Translations under genes and position numbers: made by a program | Source of the DNA: a virus | DNA: 35,856 nt | Virus record (IMG/VR): IMGVR_UViG_3300046557_000657 | Span: 1-35,856 of that record | Direction: 5' to 3' (one strand) | In this document: piece after piece, positions 1-32,481 of the stretch | Layout of the letters: each line of letters opens with the position of its first letter | Numbering within the stretch: position 1 is the stretch's first letter | The notes under the pieces: model-generated | What the model was told of the DNA's origin: nothing | The model's database searches: none | What the model saw: only the letters and a program-made list of their open reading frames with translations

Positions 1-558
1 GAGGCGGCCGAGAAGGCGCAGATCGTCTTCGACCTCAAGCTCGCCGGCCACAGCTTCCGCGCCATCGAAGCGATCACCGCAGCACCCGACGGGCCCACCG
101 GTGGGGAGCGCATTCCGTGGACCACGGCCCGCGACCTGCTGAAGGACGAGCTGGCCAGGCGAGTTGACCCGAGGGTCGACGCCTACCGTGCCATCCACCT
201 CGAACGCCTCGAAGGTGAACTCCTCCGCCTCGACGAGTTCGAGCAGCGGGCCCGCCAGGTGCTGGACCGGCATCACATCACCGTGAACAACGGCCGCGTC
301 ATCAGCGTCGACGGCGAGCCCCTCCAGGACGACGGGCCGGTCCTCGCCGCGATCGACCGCCTCATCAAGATCGAAGACGCGCGGCGCAGGAACAACGAGT
401 CCCAGCGCAAACTCCTCGGCCTCGACGCCCCCACCAAGGTCGACGCGCAGGTCACCGAAGTGACGCAGCAGGACATCGAGTTGCAGGACATGCTGGCCAG
501 CGCCCGCGCCAAGATGCAGGCCGAGGAGCAGGGCATCCGCGACGGCGGCACGGGCTGA
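1..558 (+). CDS. Terminase small subunit-like protein (5' end outside window)
   Basis: The frame is open from base 1, so the gene begins upstream of the window; 185 residues are visible. An internal GTG at 259 is not a credible start because the coding sequence continues uninterrupted before it. The visible part is helical and charged, with a region (about residues 10-60) that could be a helix-turn-helix DNA-binding part and a C-terminal acidic/glutamine-rich helix. It has no strong diagnostic motif. The call rests mainly on position: it ends one base before the large terminase start, the usual small-large terminase arrangement, where the small subunit recognises phage DNA for packaging. It could be another packaging-associated protein. 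Confidence 0.6.
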   Translation, partial: EAAEKAQIVFDLKLAGHSFRAIEAITAAPDGPTGGERIPWTTARDLLKDELARRVDPRVDAYRAIHLERLEGELLRLDEFEQRARQVLDRHHITVNNGRVISVDGEPLQDDGPVLAAIDRLIKIEDARRRNNESQRKLLGLDAPTKVDAQVTEVTQQDIELQDMLASARAKMQAEEQGIRDGGTG

Positions 559-559
559 G

Positions 560-2110
560 ATGGCGACCGCGGTCCGCACGCGCGGTTACCTCGAAGGCCA
601 GGACGCCGAGACGTTCGACCTCGCCGCCTATCTGGCCAGCTTCGACCCTCGGCTCCTCGCCGACCCCGAAGGCCGCCGCACGCTGACCCGCTTGGATCCG
701 CTGCTGTTCGGTCTCGTCTACCTGCGGCATCACTTGCGCGACAGCGAAGGGCGGATCACGTTCGGGGACGCCCACCTCGACTGGTGCCGTGCCGCCCGCG
801 CCTGGATCCGTCCGCCCGGCGGGCCGGCCGAGAACCGGGACGCCTACATCGCCCCCCGCAACATGGGGAAGTCGACCTGGTGGTTCCTCATCCTCCCCAC
901 CTGGGCGGCGGCGCACGGGCACGTGAAGTTCGCTGCCGCGTTCGCCATGGCTGCAGGCCCGGCGCAGACGCATCTCGCCACGTTCAAGCGGGAGATCGAC
1001 ACGAATGAGCTGCTCCGTCAGGATTTCCCCAGGCTGTGCACGGCAGCGAAGCGGCCGTCGGGCGCGAACGTCGCGGACACGCAGGCCATGTATATGGCGG
1101 AGTCAGGGTTCGTGTTCGCGGCCCGCGGCATCGACTCCTCGAACCTCGGCATGAAGGTGGGCGAGCAGCGGCCTGACCTCATCCTCTGTGACGACATCGA
1201 GCCCGATGAGTCGTCGTACTCGCCCGAACTCGCCCGCAAGCGGCGCACCACTCTCGTCGACTCGATCCTCCCGCTCAACGTGTACGCCCGCGTCGTGATC
1301 TCCGGCACGGTCACCATGCCCGGCAGCATCGTCCACCAGCTGGTCAAGCACGGCCGCGGCGTCGAGACCGCCGAGTGGGTGCGCGAGGAAGGGTTCCGCG
1401 CCCACTACACCCCGCCGATCATCAAGCGGGATAACGGCAGTGAGCGCAGCGTCTGGCCGGCGAAGTGGCCGCTCACCTATCTGAAGGAGATCGAGCACAC
1501 CCGGTCGTTCGCGAAGAACTACGCCAACGACCCGATGGGCGCGGACGGGGAGCTCTGGACGCCGGACGACTTCCGCTACCCGGGCGACGAGGGCCTCGAC
1601 CCGGTCACGCACATGATGCTGTCCATCGACCCCGCGGTCACGGCGAAGAGGAGCTCGGACTTCACCGGCCTGGGCGTGGTGTCGTGGTCGGCCCAGCGGC
1701 AGCGCTGCACCGTGCACGCCGCTACCGCTGTGAAGATCCAGCCGGGCCCGCTGCTCCGCGACAAAGTCCTCGCCCTGCTCGACGAGTTCCCGCAGATCGG
1801 GTTGATCCTGATCGAGGTGAACCAGGGCCAGGACACGTGGCAGGCGATCTTCCACGACATGCCGGTGAAGGTGAAGACCGTCAACCAGGTCGAGCCGAAG
1901 TTCACGCGCGCCGAGGGTGTACTGAACCATTACCAGCGCGGCCGGGTCATCCATGCGCGCAGGCTGCGGGAGTTGGAGGAGCAGCAGTGCGCGTTCCCGA
2001 AAGCCCCGCACGACGACCTCGTGGACTGTGTGGGGTCGGCGGTCCGACGCTTCATTCCGGTGGCGTCGAAGAAGGCGCCGCCTTCGGCTGGCCGGGCCAG
2101 CTACCTCTAG
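560..2110 (+). CDS. Terminase large subunit (packaging ATPase/nuclease)
   Basis: This 516-residue protein is the motor that translocates phage DNA into the prohead and cuts it. A Walker A-type P-loop (APRNMGKST, residues 98-106) and a Walker B stretch (DLILCDDIE, 206-214) form the ATPase. SGT at about 248-250 fits the coupling motif III. The RNase H-like nuclease follows, with acidic residues D357 (SIDPA), E419 (LIEVN) and the D485/D486/D489 cluster (HDDLVD). The length is normal for siphovirus TerL. The ATG lies one base after the small-subunit stop, which indicates translational coupling. No TTA codon is present, unlike the terminase of the Streptomyces phage phiHau3, where a TTA codon has been reported. 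Confidence 0.96.
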   Translation: MATAVRTRGYLEGQDAETFDLAAYLASFDPRLLADPEGRRTLTRLDPLLFGLVYLRHHLRDSEGRITFGDAHLDWCRAARAWIRPPGGPAENRDAYIAPRNMGKSTWWFLILPTWAAAHGHVKFAAAFAMAAGPAQTHLATFKREIDTNELLRQDFPRLCTAAKRPSGANVADTQAMYMAESGFVFAARGIDSSNLGMKVGEQRPDLILCDDIEPDESSYSPELARKRRTTLVDSILPLNVYARVVISGTVTMPGSIVHQLVKHGRGVETAEWVREEGFRAHYTPPIIKRDNGSERSVWPAKWPLTYLKEIEHTRSFAKNYANDPMGADGELWTPDDFRYPGDEGLDPVTHMMLSIDPAVTAKRSSDFTGLGVVSWSAQRQRCTVHAATAVKIQPGPLLRDKVLALLDEFPQIGLILIEVNQGQDTWQAIFHDMPVKVKTVNQVEPKFTRAEGVLNHYQRGRVIHARRLRELEEQQCAFPKAPHDDLVDCVGSAVRRFIPVASKKAPPSAGRASYL

Positions 2111-2112
2111 CA

Positions 2113-2190
2113 CCTGCGATTCCCAGGTTGAAGTGAGGTATCAGGAAACTATGTACCAGCCATAGGCTCAGCTATCCTTCGAATCATCGG
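2113..2190 (+). promoter_or_regulatory. Regulatory gap with two copies of a palindromic operator
   Basis: The 100-base gap before the portal gene holds two 15-mers related to the perfect palindrome at 26782-26796: CCTGCGATTCCCAGG (2113-2127, 12/15 identical) and, on the other strand, the site at 2176-2190 (CCTTCGAATCATCGG, also 12/15). The sequence after the first site (AGGTT-A-G---GGTA---AGG--CTA) also resembles that after the 26782 site, so a longer promoter-operator unit may be shared. A weak TTGAAG (2128) / TATGTA (2150) pair with 16-base spacing could be the promoter. The operator reading is inference from repetition and symmetry. Confidence 0.5.
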
Positions 2191-2210: not shown

Positions 2211-3731
2211 GTGGACGAAGAGCGTGCCGACCTCATGCTCGGGATCGAAGAGCTGACCGAAGCCCGGCCCGGCTACGACCAAGCCGCCCTCTACTACGAC
2301 GGCAAGGCCCCCGAAGTCTTCACCAGCATCCGAATCCGCCGCGCCCTCGCCGCCCGCCACGTCGACTTCGACCTCAACTTCGCCAAGACCCCCGTCGACG
2401 CCGTCACCGACCGCCTGGAGATCGCAGGCATCACCGGCGCCAACGACGAACAGACCGCCCTCATCTCCCAGATCTGGCAGGACAACCAGCTCGACCTGGA
2501 GATGCCCGACACCTTCCGCCGGGCCGGCGAGTTCGGCGACGCCTACCTCATGGTCATCCCCGTCGAGACCGACGACAGGGTCGCCCGCGTCGAGATGTTC
2601 TACAACTCGCCGCAGACCGTCCGCGTGATCTACGACGAGGAGAACCCGCGCCGCAAGCGGTTCACGATCAAGCGGTGGTGCGACGGCCCCTACCAGCGGG
2701 CCGAGTTGCAGTACGACGACCGCATCGAACGATGGACCACCAGCACGAACTCCCGCGGGGACCGGCCCGGCGACTGGCAGCACTGGCCCGCCGACCCGGA
2801 AGACCCCGAGTCCTGGACCATCGACCACGACTGGGGCGAGCAGCCCACCTTCCACTTCCGCACCGACCGGCCCTACGGCACGCCCGAGCACTACGGGGCC
2901 TACGGCCCGCAGAACGCGATCACCAAGCTGCAGTCGACGCACATGGGCACGGTCGACTACCAGGGCTTTCCCCAGCGGTACGCGCTCACCGAGACCGCCA
3001 CCACGGACACCTCCGATCTGGAGCCGGGCGACTTCGCCGACGACGACTGGCCGCCCAACGAGAATGGCGCCGGTCCCTCCGACTCCGGTGCGGACAGCAG
3101 CCTGAAGGCCGGGCCCGGCGAGATGATGCTGCTCCGCGGATTCAAGGCCGTCGGGCAGTTCGACGCGGCGCAGCCGAGCGTATTCCTCGACCCGATTACC
3201 TTCAACGTGCGGGCAATGGCCGTCATCTGCACCACCCCGCTGCACCTGTTCGACCCCTCCGGGGAGCAGCCGTCCGGACAGTCGGTGCGCGCCCAGGACG
3301 CCCCCTTCACGAAGAAGGTAGGCAACCGGCAGCTCTCCTACGGCGCCACCCTGCGGGAGGCTTTCGTCTTCGCACTGCGCCGCCTCGGCATCGCCGACCC
3401 TGTCGTCACCGTGCACTGGAAGCCCGCCGAAACAGTCGACGACGTTGAAGGCTGGCAGACCGTTGCGGCGAAGATCTCGGCTGGTGTGCCGCGCCGCCAG
3501 GCATTGATCGAGGCCGGATACCGGGCGGAGCAGGTCGACGCCTGGCTCTCGGGTACGGACGACGCTGAGCTGCAGCGCCGCGTCGACATCCTCGCCACAC
3601 TCGCAGACTCCGCCCAGAAACTCGGCAGTGCCGCGACTCTCGGGGTGCTCACCGACGATCAGGCCCGCGCACTGCTGTCCGGAGCGGTAGAGGATCTCGA
3701 ACTCCTCGCGCAGACGCAGGAGGCAAGCTGA
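2211..3731 (+). CDS. Portal protein
   Basis: This 506-residue protein is interpreted as the dodecameric portal at the capsid vertex through which DNA passes. It matches the SPP1 gp6-like portal pattern: an acidic N-terminus, a mixed alpha/beta body with tryptophan-rich loops, a long helix region in the last third (with a sequence of the type PLHLFDPSGEQPSGQS before it), and a glutamate-rich C-terminal tail. The position between terminase and MuF protein is the standard one. The stop overlaps the next ATG (TGATG). The start at 2211 was chosen because of the GGAGGT at 2201-2206. Confidence 0.9.
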   Translation: MDEERADLMLGIEELTEARPGYDQAALYYDGKAPEVFTSIRIRRALAARHVDFDLNFAKTPVDAVTDRLEIAGITGANDEQTALISQIWQDNQLDLEMPDTFRRAGEFGDAYLMVIPVETDDRVARVEMFYNSPQTVRVIYDEENPRRKRFTIKRWCDGPYQRAELQYDDRIERWTTSTNSRGDRPGDWQHWPADPEDPESWTIDHDWGEQPTFHFRTDRPYGTPEHYGAYGPQNAITKLQSTHMGTVDYQGFPQRYALTETATTDTSDLEPGDFADDDWPPNENGAGPSDSGADSSLKAGPGEMMLLRGFKAVGQFDAAQPSVFLDPITFNVRAMAVICTTPLHLFDPSGEQPSGQSVRAQDAPFTKKVGNRQLSYGATLREAFVFALRRLGIADPVVTVHWKPAETVDDVEGWQTVAAKISAGVPRRQALIEAGYRAEQVDAWLSGTDDAELQRRVDILATLADSAQKLGSAATLGVLTDDQARALLSGAVEDLELLAQTQEAS

Positions 3732-16505: not shown

Positions 16506-19370
16506 GTGACTGTTCAGGAATCCCTCAACGCGCTCGGCCAGTGGGAGATTGACCTCCTCCCGACGATCCCCCGCGAGAAGCTCGACGCCCTCGCCTACTA
16601 CGGGCACATCGCGATCGTCCGCGGTCGCGTCGACCCGCTGCTGTACGGGGACAACCTGCTGCGCGCGGCCCGCTACGTCGGCGTCCTCACCGGCAACTCG
16701 CTCACGGACGACGCCCGCACGAAGATCCCCAACGACAACATCAAGGTCAGCGGCGTCGGCATGGCCATGTGGCTCGGCGACCAGGACAACAAGGGCGACG
16801 TCTACGAGAACGCCGTCACCGCCGCGTCCGCGACGTTCGCCGACACGATCCGCATGCTGCTCCCCACGTCCGGCGCCGTCACCGAAGGCACCCTCTACGC
16901 GGTCGCAGGGCAGTACACGGGCACGCACCAGTGGCAGTCGCCGCGCGAGGCGATCCAGTACGTCTGCCAGACCATGTCCACCACCAGCATCCCCGTCAGC
17001 TGGCGGGTCAACGGCGACGGCACCCTCGACGCCGGCCCCGAGTCCAGCCTGTTCGTCACCACCCCGACGTGCACCATCGTCGCGGCTGGCGCCGGCGACG
17101 ACATGAGCATGCGGGGCGTACCGGGCAGTCTCGACCTCACAGGGGATGTAGAGGACTACACCACCCGCGTCGTCCTCCTCGCCGAGGGCGAAGGCACGAG
17201 CATCGCCACCGGCTCGGCAGACCTGTCCCCGGCCACCGGCTACAAGGACATCCACGGCAACGCCGTCAAGTTCACCCGGCTGGTGTCCGAGTCCGACACC
17301 ACCGCGACGAACGCGACCACGCGCGCTGCTCTCGCCCTCTCGCAGTACACGGCGCCGAAGCAAGACCTCAGGCTGAACATCCAGGACTACGACGTCGAGG
17401 GCAGCTTCCAGCTCGGCGACTACGTGTACGCCTACGACCCCGACAAGGCCCTCTACAACCCGAACATCGAGATCAACTTCCGAGGTCAGCGCCTCAACCC
17501 GATCAAGCTCCAGGTGACGGAGGTCAGTTGGGGTGTGACCGCCGACTACACCGTCGCCTACCGCAGTGCTAACGGCACTTGGTACGACCTCACCGACCAC
17601 ATCGAGACCTCCGACGCCGGCACCTATGTGACGGTCGGCGGGTTCGACCGAGCGCTCAACTCGGCGGGGGAGTCGGTCGGGTCACGGCCTAACGCGGACA
17701 CGTCGACGCCCGGCGTGCCCACGTTGATCGAGCCGTTCACCGGGAGCGCCTACCTCGACAGCCGCGGCTACACGCGCGCCCGGGTCGTCCTCTCGTGGAA
17801 CGCCCCGAACAACGTCGACGGCACCAGCATCCTGGACGGGGATCACTACGAGATCCGCTACGCCATCGACACCGACATGCTCTACCCGGCCACATGGTCC
17901 CAGGTCTCCCAGGTGCGGTGGCAGGACTTGCAGACGTGGGCGCAGCCGTTCGCCGCCCCGGACGGCGAGTGGCAGACGATGGTCGTCAACTGGGACACCA
18001 CGTCGGCCCAGTTGCAGGACCTGTCGCCCGGGGTCGGCTACGACGTGCAGATCCGCGCGGTGGACAAGACCGGCAATGTTGGATCGTGGTCGAGTACGAC
18101 GACTTTTGTTGCATCGGCCGACAATCTGCCGCCGTCCACGCCAGCCGCACCGTCGGTGGCCGGGTCGCGGATCGCGGTGCAGATCACGCACACGCTCGGC
18201 AAGTCCAGCGGCGGTACGTACAACCTCGAGAGCGACCTCGACCACCTCGAAGTCCACGTCTCCTATGAGCCGACGTTCACACCCGACACGACCACGCTGG
18301 CGGGGAAGGCTGTCGCCAACGCGGGCATGATCCAGGCGCAAATCCCCGTCGTCTATACCGTGCAGGTCGAGGAGACCTCCGCCCGCTACGTCCGCATCGT
18401 CGCCGTCGACAAGACCGGCAACAAGTCCGGCCCGTCCGACGCTGCGAGCAGCACAGCACTCCTCATCGACGACGCCCACATCTCCGACCTCACCGTCTCC
18501 AAGGTCACTGCGGGCACAATCGGGGCGGACTTCATCGTCGGCGCCCGCATCAAGACGGCTGACACCGGGTCCCGCGTCGAGCTCAACTCCGGCGGCATCG
18601 GGGCATGGAACGCGGCGGGCACACAGACCGTGGCCATCGCGGCGTCCGACGGCTCCGTCACCATCGTCGGCCAGCTCAAGTCGGGCACCTCCGGCAAGCG
18701 CATCGAGATCAACCCAACCAGCACCTACCTCCCGGAGATCCGCTGGTACGCCAACACCGGCACCGACTACGGCTACATCAACGCCGTTTCAACAGGCACC
18801 GACGTCGCCCTGGGCATGAACTCCAGCGACTTCGACGACTCCGGCGTCGACGTCATCGCCCGCACCTACCTGAGTTCGACGTTCGCCGAATTGGCCATCG
18901 TCCGCTCCGACGACCAGACACGGCGTGGCGGCTATGTCAGGGCGGTGCCCTCCAGCGTTCTGATCGGCTACAACCGCGGCGGCGTCGACGGCGGGTTCTT
19001 CTACGCGACGGACGCACTCACCCAAGTCGGAACTCAAGTCGGCGACGACGAGGACGCGCGAATCGACTTCGCCCACAGCAACGGCAGCGTCCGAATCGTC
19101 GGCGAAATGGACTACTACAACAGCTCACAGAACGCGCTGCTGATGGCCTCTGACAACGCGTCCGGATCGTCGGGCGTCATCGTCTCCTACGGGGCCACGA
19201 GCACGGGCTCCCCCAAGGTTCTCGTGACGCTGTACGACACGTCGAAGTCGGCCACGAACGCCTTGGCCGTGAACGTCACCGCGAGATCAACAACCGGGTT
19301 CACCGCATCTTTTAACGGCAGCACAGGCGGCACAGCAGAGCTGTCCTGGTGGGCGTACAGGATCAACTAA
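16506..19370 (+). CDS. Tail hub / tail-associated protein with FN3-like domains
   Basis: This 954-residue protein resembles the central tail hub (Tal-like) of actinophages. Residues 1-390 form the hub-type beta-rich part. About 398-535 and 540-650 look like fibronectin type III domains (STPGVPTLIEP, VVLSWNAP, YDVQIRAVDKTGNVGSWS; the second ends YVRIVAVDKTGNKSG). A segment with TAGTIGADFIVGARIKTADTGS follows, and then a long beta-rich C-terminal part probably pointing outward for receptor contact. The stop overlaps the next start (TAATG). Confidence 0.8.
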   Translation: MTVQESLNALGQWEIDLLPTIPREKLDALAYYGHIAIVRGRVDPLLYGDNLLRAARYVGVLTGNSLTDDARTKIPNDNIKVSGVGMAMWLGDQDNKGDVYENAVTAASATFADTIRMLLPTSGAVTEGTLYAVAGQYTGTHQWQSPREAIQYVCQTMSTTSIPVSWRVNGDGTLDAGPESSLFVTTPTCTIVAAGAGDDMSMRGVPGSLDLTGDVEDYTTRVVLLAEGEGTSIATGSADLSPATGYKDIHGNAVKFTRLVSESDTTATNATTRAALALSQYTAPKQDLRLNIQDYDVEGSFQLGDYVYAYDPDKALYNPNIEINFRGQRLNPIKLQVTEVSWGVTADYTVAYRSANGTWYDLTDHIETSDAGTYVTVGGFDRALNSAGESVGSRPNADTSTPGVPTLIEPFTGSAYLDSRGYTRARVVLSWNAPNNVDGTSILDGDHYEIRYAIDTDMLYPATWSQVSQVRWQDLQTWAQPFAAPDGEWQTMVVNWDTTSAQLQDLSPGVGYDVQIRAVDKTGNVGSWSSTTTFVASADNLPPSTPAAPSVAGSRIAVQITHTLGKSSGGTYNLESDLDHLEVHVSYEPTFTPDTTTLAGKAVANAGMIQAQIPVVYTVQVEETSARYVRIVAVDKTGNKSGPSDAASSTALLIDDAHISDLTVSKVTAGTIGADFIVGARIKTADTGSRVELNSGGIGAWNAAGTQTVAIAASDGSVTIVGQLKSGTSGKRIEINPTSTYLPEIRWYANTGTDYGYINAVSTGTDVALGMNSSDFDDSGVDVIARTYLSSTFAELAIVRSDDQTRRGGYVRAVPSSVLIGYNRGGVDGGFFYATDALTQVGTQVGDDEDARIDFAHSNGSVRIVGEMDYYNSSQNALLMASDNASGSSGVIVSYGATSTGSPKVLVTLYDTSKSATNALAVNVTARSTTGFTASFNGSTGGTAELSWWAYRIN

Positions 19371-26781: not shown

Positions 26782-26828
26782 CCTACGATTCGTAGGTTCA
26801 TGCGGTACTACAGGCTACGATTCCAAGG
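26782..26828. promoter_or_regulatory. Divergent regulatory region with palindromic operators
   Basis: A perfect 15-bp palindrome CCTACGATTCGTAGG (7-base arms around one T) at 26782-26796 is followed by a second copy GCTACGATTCCAAGG (26814-26828, 12/15). It lies between the leftward sugar cassette and the rightward peptidase/lysis genes, so one bound protein could control both. Promoter elements are not clear; TACGAT at 26817-26822 could be a rightward -10 box and TAGGCT (opposite strand, 26779-26784) a leftward one. The same operator occurs before the portal gene. Confidence 0.6.
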
Positions 26829-26852: not shown

Positions 26853-27653
26853 ATGACCACGCCACATCCACTCGGCCGCAGAGTCGAACACGACCCCCGC
26901 AGCCTCGCCTTCGCCCACGGCGTCCTGCCCAAGACGGCGATCAAGTCCGTTGACTGGGCACGCCGCGCCCCGATCTTCGACCAGCAGTCACTCGGCTCAT
27001 GCACCGGCAACGCCGCGGCCGGCCTCGTCGCCACCGACTTCCGCGACCGCACCGGCCTCACCTCGGTCGCGATCGACGGTGAAGTGCTGCCGGTCGACGA
27101 GGACTTCGCCGTCAAGGTCTACTCACTGGCCACGCAGCTCGACGAGTTCGACGGCGCCTACCCGCCCGACGACACCGGCAGCTCCGGACTCGGCGCAGCG
27201 AAGGCGCTGAAGAAGCTCGGGCTGGCCACCAGCTACACGCACGCCTTCTCCTTGACCGCGCTCAAGTCGGCACTCCAGGACGGCCCGGTCATGGTCGGCA
27301 CCGTGTGGCTGAACAGCATGTTCACCCCCACCACGGTCGGCACCCTCACCGTCGACCGGGACTCCGACGTGGCAGGCGGCCACGAGTACGTCATCTCCGC
27401 CTACGACGCCGCCGCAGGCCAGTTCCGCATCGACAACTCGTGGGGCGAGAGCTGGGGCGTGCGCGGCTCCGCATGGATCGAAGCCGCTGACCTGCAGTGG
27501 CTGCTGGCCCAGCAGGGCGACGTCACCGTTCCGGTCTGGGCCGCGGTGCCCACCCCTCCTCCGGCGCCCACTCCTGCTCCGGATCCTCGACTGGTTCAGG
27601 TCGTGGGTCTGATGACGGCGTGGGCGCACGACAACCACGTGACGGGAGCCTGA
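26853..27653 (+). CDS. Papain-like (C1 family) cysteine peptidase
   Basis: This 266-residue protein carries the full papain catalytic set: Q44 and C50 in [15 protein letters not shown]177 in [11 protein letters not shown], and N195 in NSWGESWG. The C-terminus has a proline-rich linker ([13 protein letters not shown]) and a short helix. No signal peptide is seen. It is the first gene of the lysis region, with GGGAGGA before the ATG. It might cleave peptide bridges in the wall, process phage proteins or act on host proteins; sequence alone does not decide. Confidence 0.85.
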
Positions 27654-27655
27654 CC

Positions 27656-28501
27656 ATGGCGGAGCTGTGGATGCCGGGCGCAACCCGGCTGGACATAGGC
27701 GATCACGCCGCAACCGACGGCGGCCCGGCCAAGGCGATCGCCCACATCACCTGGGACAAGAACGCGACTGCGGCCAAGCCGGTCGACCTGGTGCCCTACG
27801 AAGACCTCCGCTCCTACTTCTCCGGCAGCGGCAAGAGTGTCGCCCCCCACATCCTGTGGGACCCCTTCACCGGGCGCGTCACCCAGTTCGTCCCCGCGAC
27901 GTCCCGCTCGAAGTCCCTCGCGGACGGCGCCGGTGGGACCCGTACCAACCGGGCCGGTTCCGTGGTGATCCAGGTGGAAGCGCTCTTCTTCCCCTACTGC
28001 CGGGTCGGCACCGCGGTCTACCCGACACTGAAGTCCACGCCCTGCAAGGGCTGGGCCGACCTCCAGAACTGGGTGCACTCCTGGGGCGTACCGAACGCCT
28101 GGCCCATGGGCAAGCCGATCGACTTCACATCCCACCGCAGCGAGACCGTGTGGGAGAAGGAGGCGGGCTGGTACGCGCACGCCCAGGTCCCCGAGAACAC
28201 CCACCAGGACCCCGGCTCCTGGCCGGACTTCGTGAGCCCACCCGCACCGGCCAAGCCGAAGTACGAGCCGTTCCCTGGTGCGGCCTGGTTCGTGACGGGC
28301 CGTCGCTCGCCGATCGTCGCCGCGATGCACGACCGGCTCGTCGCCGTCGGCTGCAACCACTATCAGTCCTCGAAGAACAAGGACGTCATCGGCTCCGGCG
28401 ACAAGGCGTCCTACGAGGCCTGGCAAAGGAAGTGCGGCTACCAGGGTGACTGGCCTCCGGGCAAGACCACCTGGGATCTGCTCAAGGTCCCCAACGTCTG
28501 A
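27656..28501 (+). CDS. Endolysin, N-acetylmuramoyl-L-alanine amidase type
   Basis: This 281-residue protein has an N-terminal amidase of the Amidase_2/PGRP type: AHITWD (H30), APHILWDP with GRVTQFVP, and the closing motif HAQVPENTHQDPG (H175, H183, D185), all usual for a zinc amidase. A Pro-rich linker leads to a C-terminal cell-wall-binding-like domain (about 210-281, WFVTGRRSPIVAAMHDRLVA), typical of Streptomyces phage endolysins. It cuts peptidoglycan at the end of infection. It starts 2 bases after the peptidase stop. Confidence 0.9.
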   Translation: MAELWMPGATRLDIGDHAATDGGPAKAIAHITWDKNATAAKPVDLVPYEDLRSYFSGSGKSVAPHILWDPFTGRVTQFVPATSRSKSLADGAGGTRTNRAGSVVIQVEALFFPYCRVGTAVYPTLKSTPCKGWADLQNWVHSWGVPNAWPMGKPIDFTSHRSETVWEKEAGWYAHAQVPENTHQDPGSWPDFVSPPAPAKPKYEPFPGAAWFVTGRRSPIVAAMHDRLVAVGCNHYQSSKNKDVIGSGDKASYEAWQRKCGYQGDWPPGKTTWDLLKVPNV

Positions 28502-30092: not shown

Positions 30093-31280
30093 ATGACCAG
30101 CTTCAGCGACGACTTCAACCGAGCCGACTCCACGTCGTTGGGGGCCGGTTGGGTCGAGGTGTCCGGAGACTGGTCGATCATCTCCAGCCGGCTCAGCTCC
30201 GGCAACGCGGGCGGCACGGTCATCCTGCGCGCGGCTGGTGCGATGGCTTCGAACGATCACAGCGTTCAGGTCACGATCACTGCCACCGCAGCCGTCAGCC
30301 ACGGCATCTGGGCTCGCGGCAACTCGAACATTTCGCAAGGCTATTTGTGGCGCAACGACGGCGCGAGCTGGAACTTGTTCAGCGTCGTCGGCGGTAGCTT
30401 CACCTCCATCGGCAGCTTCGCAGGCGCAGCAGTCGCGGGCGACGTGGCGAAACTCGAAGCCGTCGGCTCGGCAATCAAGGGCTACGTCAACGGCACCGTC
30501 CGCGTCTCGGTCACAGACACCGCCGTCACCACCGGCACGTCCGTCGGCCTCCGCGCCGAGTCGACCAACTCGCTCCGCTTTGACGACTTCGTCGCGGCGG
30601 ACGTTACCGCGGGCGCTACCCTCGGCATCTCCAGCAGCACCGAGACCGCGCAGCCGCTCACGGGGACGAAGGCGGCCACGCTCACCCCCGCCACGGAAAC
30701 CAGCACCGCGCAGACCCTCGCAGGCGCCAAGACCGCAGCACTCTCCCTGGCTACCGAGCAGGGCACAGCACAGGCGCTCACCAGCGCCAAGACGGCGACA
30801 CTCACCCCGGCCAATGGAGCCGACGCAGCGCAGGTCCTGTCCGGGGCGAAGGCTGCCGACGTCGGGACCGCGGGCGCGACCGAATCGGCTCAGCCGCTCA
30901 CCGGGGCCAAGGCTGCCACCCTCACACCGGCCGTCGCGCAGGACACAGCCCAAGCCCTCAGCGGAGTAAAGGCTGGCACGCTCGGTACTGCCGGGGCCGT
31001 CGAAGAAGCCCAGCCGCTCACGGCGGCCACCCCCTCCACGACGCTCACCCCCGCCAGCAGCGTTGAGACTGCGCAGCCGCTGGCAGGCTTCAAGACCGCC
31101 ACGCTACGGCCGGCGCTGGAGGTTGGCACGGCGCGCCCGCTCGGCGCGCAGTCCACCACCGCGCCCAGCCCGGAGCGCACCTGCACGATCCCCGCTGAGC
31201 GTCGGCGACTTGAGGTGACCGCCGGCAATCGGCGGCTGGCCGTGGCCGCCGAGCATCGCACCCTGACAGTCCGGAGGTAG
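30093..31280 (+). CDS. Virion-type protein: beta-sandwich domain plus 20-residue tandem repeats
   Basis: This 395-residue protein has an N-terminal domain (residues 1-175; DDFNRADSTSLGAGW, LRFDDFVAADV) of the LamG/concanavalin A-like type, often carbohydrate-binding. It is followed by about nine repeats of 20 residues (181-361; core TAQPLTGAKAATLTPA) and a basic tail with alternating R/E/L strands (ERRRLEVTAGNRRLAV). It may be a surface or fibre protein that binds cell-wall sugar. GGGAGG precedes the ATG. Confidence 0.7.
   Translation: MTSFSDDFNRADSTSLGAGWVEVSGDWSIISSRLSSGNAGGTVILRAAGAMASNDHSVQVTITATAAVSHGIWARGNSNISQGYLWRNDGASWNLFSVVGGSFTSIGSFAGAAVAGDVAKLEAVGSAIKGYVNGTVRVSVTDTAVTTGTSVGLRAESTNSLRFDDFVAADVTAGATLGISSSTETAQPLTGTKAATLTPATETSTAQTLAGAKTAALSLATEQGTAQALTSAKTATLTPANGADAAQVLSGAKAADVGTAGATESAQPLTGAKAATLTPAVAQDTAQALSGVKAGTLGTAGAVEEAQPLTAATPSTTLTPASSVETAQPLAGFKTATLRPALEVGTARPLGAQSTTAPSPERTCTIPAERRRLEVTAGNRRLAVAAEHRTLTVRR
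30633..31175 (+). repeat. 60-bp tandem repeats within the coding sequence
   Basis: About nine in-frame units encode the TAQPLTGAKAATLTPA-type repeat. The period is exactly 20 residues from residue 181 to 300, then one unit of 21, then 20 again. The units are diverged in DNA, so the array is old or diversifying rather than a recent duplication. Confidence 0.8.
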
Positions 31281-31851: not shown

Positions 31852-31863
31852 AGGAGGGGTTGA

Positions 31864-32481
31864 ATGGCCCTAGTTGGCCTCGTCCGAGTAAGCACCGACA
31901 AGCAGAACACCGAGCGGCAGCACGACGCGCTCGACCCGGTCTGCCTCAAGGTCTTCGAAGAGAAGATGAGCGGCAAGCTCCGCGCCGAGGAGCGCCCCGC
32001 GCTCTCCGCAGCGATCGAGTTCATGCGCGAGGGTGACATGCTCTGCGTCCAGGAAGTCGACCGCCTCGGCCGTAACCTCCTCGAAGGGCTGATCGTCCTC
32101 AACGACCTCTTCGAGCGCGGCATCTCGGTGAAGGTACTGGAGGGCATCGCCGCCGGCGAGCACAAGGAACGCTCCCTGATCCTCGACCTGGCTCTCGCCC
32201 TTGCCGAGGACCGGCGCCGCGACATCGTGAAGAAGACGAAGGACGGCCTGGAGGCCGCACGCAAGCGTGGCCGGGTCGGGGGCCGCAAGCCCGTCATGAC
32301 GGAAGCACTGACCGTCCAGGCCGTGGCCCTGCGGGACAGCGGTTTCACCATCCGGCAGATCCAGCCCCACCTACGGATCGCCGAAGGTGCGAGCAAGGGC
32401 AAGAACCCGAGCGTCGGCGCCATCTCTCAGGCGCTCCAGGCGCACGACGCCGAGCAGCTGGCGGCATCCTGCACCGAATAG
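31864..32481 (+). CDS. Small serine recombinase (resolvase/invertase family)
   Basis: This 205-residue protein has the family signature: R8 and the catalytic serine S10 (VRVSTDKQNTERQ), DRLGRN (D66 to N71) and the following dimer helix, then a C-terminal helix-turn-helix (about 145-195). The length fits resolvases and invertases, not the large phage integrases. It may resolve dimers, flip a segment or integrate the element. AAGGAGG precedes the ATG. It is followed by a cluster of hairpins. Confidence 0.9.
   Translation: MALVGLVRVSTDKQNTERQHDALDPVCLKVFEEKMSGKLRAEERPALSAAIEFMREGDMLCVQEVDRLGRNLLEGLIVLNDLFERGISVKVLEGIAAGEHKERSLILDLALALAEDRRRDIVKKTKDGLEAARKRGRVGGRKPVMTEALTVQAVALRDSGFTIRQIQPHLRIAEGASKGKNPSVGAISQALQAHDAEQLAASCTE

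Follow-up and report, generated by a model that had tools for sequence, protein, structure and literature searches.

The stretch of DNA analysed here, hereafter the window, is a 35.9 kb IMG/VR record that opens within a terS-like gene and runs through terL into the portal gene; further along, a second gap separates divergent sugar genes from the lysis genes (Table 1). An overlapping record, IMGVR_UViG_3300046475_000242 (G001), is 99.995% identical to the window over 21,765 bp and adds 4.1 kb on the left. Comparison with relatives places the likely portal start at GTG 2211; the start of the longest open reading frame, GTG 2199, falls within the ribosome-binding site. Elsewhere, the gene at 30093-31280 contains four diverged copies of a 71-nt unit (30622-31115), spaced at 120-183 bp.

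Table 1. Genes and putative operators in the window, with one example of the cl27 gene from a related genome
Feature	Position	Strand	Remarks
terS-like gene, 3' part	1..558	+	Putative operator CCTACGATTCAAAGG about 95 bases left of window base 1, at G001:4015-4029
terL, terminase large subunit	560..2110	+	PHROG match; transcribed towards the portal gap
Putative distal operator, terL-portal gap	2113..2127	+	CCTGCGATTCCCAGG; 63 bp upstream of the proximal copy
Putative proximal operator, portal	2176..2190	-	Best matrix match on the minus strand; plus strand reads CCTTCGAATCATCGG
Portal gene	2211..3731	+	PHROG portal match; putatively controlled by the 2113/2176 pair
Putative distal operator, lysis	26782..26796	+	CCTACGATTCGTAGG; 7-bp arms; gap between divergent sugar genes (-) and lysis genes (+)
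Putative proximal operator, lysis	26814..26828	+	GCTACGATTCCAAGG; 32 bp downstream of the distal copy
Cysteine-peptidase-like gene, lysis operon	26853-27653	+	PHROG match; among the first genes of the operon
Endolysin gene, lysis operon	27656-28501	+	PHROG match; among the first genes of the operon
cl27 gene (example)	G003 31859-32056	-	Portal orientation; just left of terS

An earlier note on this sequence had described a palindrome in the lysis gap together with three imperfect copies, and all four sites exist as claimed: CCTACGATTCGTAGG is matched with three mismatches at 26814 and 2113 on the plus strand and at 2176 on the minus strand. The copy nearest the portal gene lies directly 5' of its ribosome-binding site, TGGAGG, and the corresponding lysis copy is just upstream of GGGAGG (around 26839). 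One more match at three mismatches was found, at 19088 on the minus strand, within the coding sequence 16506-19370. Counted by strand, matches in the window number six against 0.62 expected in shuffles, and no shuffle reached six. A weight matrix built from 20 portal sites of other phages, with the window's own group excluded, places the same four sites at ranks one to four (2113, 14.3; 2176, 13.4; 26814, 13.3; 26782, 12.8), the next score being 9.8; each of the four scores is expected only 0.03-0.15 times per shuffled window.

Two further statements of the note hold in part. Sites do occur in the two intergenic regions that it named, but the list was incomplete, as the overlapping record shows that the window's own phage also has a site near terS (G001:4015), about 95 bases past the left end. 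Likewise, the similarity that continues beyond the first portal site (AGGTT-A-G---GGTA---AGG) is present in the window but not evident in the relatives compared, and is therefore probably due to chance. The note had also placed the regulator outside the window, and we recognised none within it.

Sites at three late-gene starts in related phages

Of the portal gene's 37 relatives in the viral collection, the majority have CCTTCGATTCAAAGG, or a sequence very like it, shortly before the portal ribosome-binding site, and a second copy often follows terL directly. We scanned 13 records for the palindrome and read 10 of these closely. In nine near-complete relatives and an integrated Streptomyces stelliscabiei prophage, the pattern T-nn-CCTWYGAWTCRWAGG-T is found at three late-gene starts, namely in front of terS, in the terL-portal gap and at the lysis promoter; the terS-front locus lies approximately 2.2-3.2 kb upstream of portal in the nine near-complete genomes. 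The suggestion that head and lysis genes share a putative operator is thus upheld, its position being conserved across dozens of related phages. The possibility, raised with that suggestion, that the motif occurs at background frequency is not borne out in the nine near-complete relatives (66-82 kb each), where it is essentially confined to the three late loci and essentially absent elsewhere. At three mismatches a few scattered extras appear, for example within a late gene (G004:46863) and near an XRE gene (G009:55902), and a reversed control pattern gave no matches in all records but one. A matrix derived from portal sites alone recovers both terS and lysis sites: across the complete genomes it scores portal and terS sites highest, and in nearly all of them the lysis sites follow closely.

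Presence of the element follows the relatedness of TerL. At TerL identities of 73% or more, nearly every relative combines a portal site with a terS site lying 590-900 bp upstream of terL; the version in one relative at 72% is partial, both sites are lacking in four at 71%, and those at 57% or below yield chance-level matches only. Such a cut-off indicates that the element is a lineage trait. Four phages without the palindrome (L227, L229, L230 and L231, TerL approximately 71%) share TA(C/T)(C/G)GTGATCGCGA at the same place before portal, an element that may be a counterpart with another specificity. Searching the phage collection for short DNA matches gave nothing relevant, and the known phages Kromp and Shaeky have no comparable site set.

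With near-duplicates removed, 26 terS, 22 portal and 14 lysis sites give the consensus TnnCCTWYGATTCRAAGGT, the core of which, CCTWYGAWTCRWAGG, is near-palindromic. When a second copy was sought 20-77 bp upstream with at most four mismatches, the offset was 31, 32, 63 or 64 bp in 35 of the 38 matches: 31-32 bp at terS and lysis, and 63-64 bp at portal, equivalent to three and six helical turns of 10.5 bp. The proximal copy ends some 5-35 bp before the ribosome-binding site, nearest at portal and lysis; it is the most conserved copy, and mostly has the same orientation. Some groups have a weak distal copy or none, as in the portal gaps of G003 and G010. The sites, their positions, their phasing and their conservation are all directly visible in the genomes. 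One caveat concerns TACGAT, which occurs inside terS and lysis copies and in many proximal copies may be a -10 box, in which case apparent operator conservation would be inflated. No -35 box is conserved among the aligned terS, portal and lysis sites.

Candidate regulators and similar elements in Streptomyces chromosomes

Searches with tblastn and phmmer detected no non-late protein in all carriers, though they might overlook one that has diverged strongly. Among non-late proteins, only cl27 turned up in each of the nine IMG/VR relatives (G002-G010); this 65-aa basic DUF7218 protein (MVSDRGGR..) is encoded divergently from the terS promoter. We rejected it as an obligate regulator: the complete S. 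stelliscabiei prophage has sites without the gene, which is missing also from the 4.1 kb that G001 adds on the left, and many mycobacteriophages have similar proteins. The small XRE proteins (cl32) fare no better, since the operator stays the same across differing recognition helices, and cl32 is absent from two or three genomes; constancy of the operator among phages with varying XRE repressor genes also means that it is probably not an immunity operator. Divergent HTH/RHH genes 1.5-3.5 kb upstream of terS were set aside because their folds differ among carriers of one and the same site. In this region of the relatives, the minus-strand block opens with a gene for an HTH protein or, in other phages, for a ribbon-helix-helix-like protein; the plus-strand gene that faces it likewise exists in versions unrelated to one another, several of them with ALAA-like tails. 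Finally, a sigma-factor-like HTH family was not detected in G005 and only weakly in P16.

Since the carriers share no detectable phage-encoded non-late protein, the regulator may be a host protein, and we therefore searched whole Streptomyces genomes. In five prophage-bearing genomes (8.4-10.5 Mb) the exact pattern occurs two to four times each, mostly in the prophage, and the control pattern not at all. A perfect CCTTCGATTCGAAGG is also present in another prophage of S. stelliscabiei 6509883 (L155, around 2883), flanked on one side by a terminator-like hairpin and on the other by genes related to this phage family. Across 199 Streptomyces genomes, with two control matches, exact matches outside prophages concentrate at two chromosomal spots, one directly after pup and before an EndoVII/HNH-like gene, the other adjoining tRNA-Leu(CAA) and before a LAGLIDADG/HTH-like gene. 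At these spots CCTTCGA(A/T)TCGAAGG and variants are conserved (loci L274-L363, for example L302, L309 and L332; L304 and L330). A few further exact matches fall near tRNA-Leu(TAG) and rdgB, the interval between which carries the 15-mer pattern in L323, L329, L339 and L343; in the last three it forms the tip of a longer hairpin, which is probably a terminator, and the matches at rdgB and tRNA-Leu(TAG) were set aside on that account. Similarly, TCGCCTTCAACCCGAAGGT, which occurs in many Streptomyces genomes, was discounted because it can be read as FAFNPKV and so looks like coding sequence.

Among 30 pup loci, the element is present in 15 (0-2 mismatches) and clearly absent from 15 (at least five mismatches), and it accompanies the endonuclease-like gene (11/12 versus 4/18; Fisher p 0.0005, with the gene called by a rough motif rule). 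The chromosomal palindromes resemble the phage site in having the same 15-mer pattern and, in the pup set, enriched flanking T (at -3 in 10 of 15 and at +16 in 11 of 15, as in phages), but differ in being mostly perfect palindromes in single copies. As orthologous loci are not independent, these matches amount to perhaps two or three independent coincidences, and the relation between the chromosomal and phage elements, judged from sequence likeness, is an unproven lead. More speculatively, and in our estimation rather improbably, the regulator could be a Streptomyces host or genus-wide protein with a small regulon comprising the pup-linked EndoVII-like genes, the tRNA-Leu-linked LAGLIDADG-like genes and the prophage late genes; either the phages would then be under a host switch, or the host nucleases would fire at the phage late phase.

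Proposed control of the late genes

What might the palindrome do? Because the same palindrome stands before packaging, portal and lysis genes and almost nowhere else, one protein probably switches all late genes together. We favour the interpretation, to which we assign a probability of about 0.6, that it is the operator of a dimeric DNA-binding protein that jointly controls three late starts (terS/terL, portal/head/tail and lysis). That a protein binds here, as a dimer and cooperatively, and with what sign it regulates, are predictions from site sequence and arrangement. The proximal copy would lie on the transcription and translation start region, directly 5' of the ribosome-binding site, and copies three or six turns apart would present the same face of the DNA, such that two dimers could act cooperatively or via a short loop. 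The bound protein may keep the late genes off until the late phase, either by preventing initiation or by acting as a road-block. A pair of phased dimers on one face, one of them over the start region, would have the geometry of a repressor pair or road-block. This sign of regulation is a tentative choice, held at somewhat under even odds, and activation is a credible though weaker candidate. In front of lysis and portal, the proximal copy is too near the start codon to be the usual activator site, upstream of -35, but an activator acting through the distal copy is possible.

The most serious competitor to the operator of a repressor is a set of late activator sites, at which an activator encoded by the phage would, like Mu C or P2 Ogr, bind the distal copy and recruit RNA polymerase. 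Under this scenario transcription would start where the proximal copy ends, putting the centre of the distal copy at approximately -39 or -71, offsets that fit class II and class I activator positions, and the -10 box (TACGAT or TATCCT) would be inside the proximal copy. The site set is coextensive with the late genes, no -35 box is conserved, and no sigma-70-like promoter was found in either the portal or the lysis gap; this last absence is what activator-dependent promoters show, and it counts against operator repression. However, the proximal copy, which overlaps the presumed start, is the most conserved, the distal copy is missing in some groups, and no conserved phage activator was found, so that we regard such an activator as possible but on the unlikely side.

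Stoperator-like road-blocks of a prophage immunity repressor, as in L5 or R4, the latter a parallel that the earlier note had raised, would account for sites just before start codons and in read-through positions such as the terL-portal gap, and for proximal copies mostly sharing an orientation. Such road-blocks do not sit well with a symmetric site found at only three loci in 66-82 kb, against the many sites reported for the L5 and R4 types, nor with its constancy among phages whose XRE repressors differ in recognition helices or that lack this family, and we consider this reading improbable. Still less credible is an RNA hairpin adjoining the ribosome-binding site: the distal lysis copy, CCTACGATTCGTAGG, has the potential for a 6-bp stem, but the commonest terS proximal copy, CCTACGATTCAAAGG, is strongly conserved despite A-A and C-A stem mismatches, and helical phasing is meaningless in RNA. 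We attach just as little weight to packaging or partition (centromere-like) sites with no part in transcription control; one site adjoins terS and some relatives are whole contigs, but the sites mark three separate late starts, each directly 5' of a ribosome-binding site, and are unchanged despite TerS N-termini of two unrelated kinds.

Comparison with characterised systems shows both likenesses and differences. The stoperators of L5-type (cluster A) mycobacteriophages are asymmetric 13-mers, more than 20 of which are spread over the genome and bound by a repressor monomer (PMC9283540); like the sites described here they occupy short gaps just before genes, but ours are near-palindromic and at three loci. 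At least eight intergenic sites per genome have been reported as stoperators in R4-like Streptomyces phages (PMC10276819), which share the host genus and the presence of intergenic control sites; compared on site number, they differ from the three loci seen here. In phage Mu, one regulator, the activator C, serves several late promoters (lys, I, P and mom) with non-consensus -35 and -10 boxes (PMC4461284). The regulator proposed here would likewise govern several late promoters, including those of lysis and head genes. The C site, however, is upstream of or overlaps the -35 box, a position that the distal copy of the Streptomyces phages could fit. Their conserved copy, by contrast, lies in the start region and is paired at three or six turns, and these phages have no known activator gene. 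P2 Ogr and P4 Delta offer another parallel in that a symmetric site is known at each late operon and only there, but the Ogr site is single and near -55, whereas our proximal copy borders directly on the ribosome-binding site, and we identified no Ogr-like gene. We found no late-gene control element described for these Streptomyces phages in the open-access papers searched, although a description in a subscription journal could have escaped this search; of these papers, the only one to print any of the core sequences searched is an unrelated chloroplast genome paper.

A three-locus operator with strict helical phasing would provide bait for the regulator, and a ready reporter for entry into the late phase or for prophage induction. 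Should the chromosomal copies respond to that regulator too, the lytic timing of these prophages would be linked to host nuclease genes.
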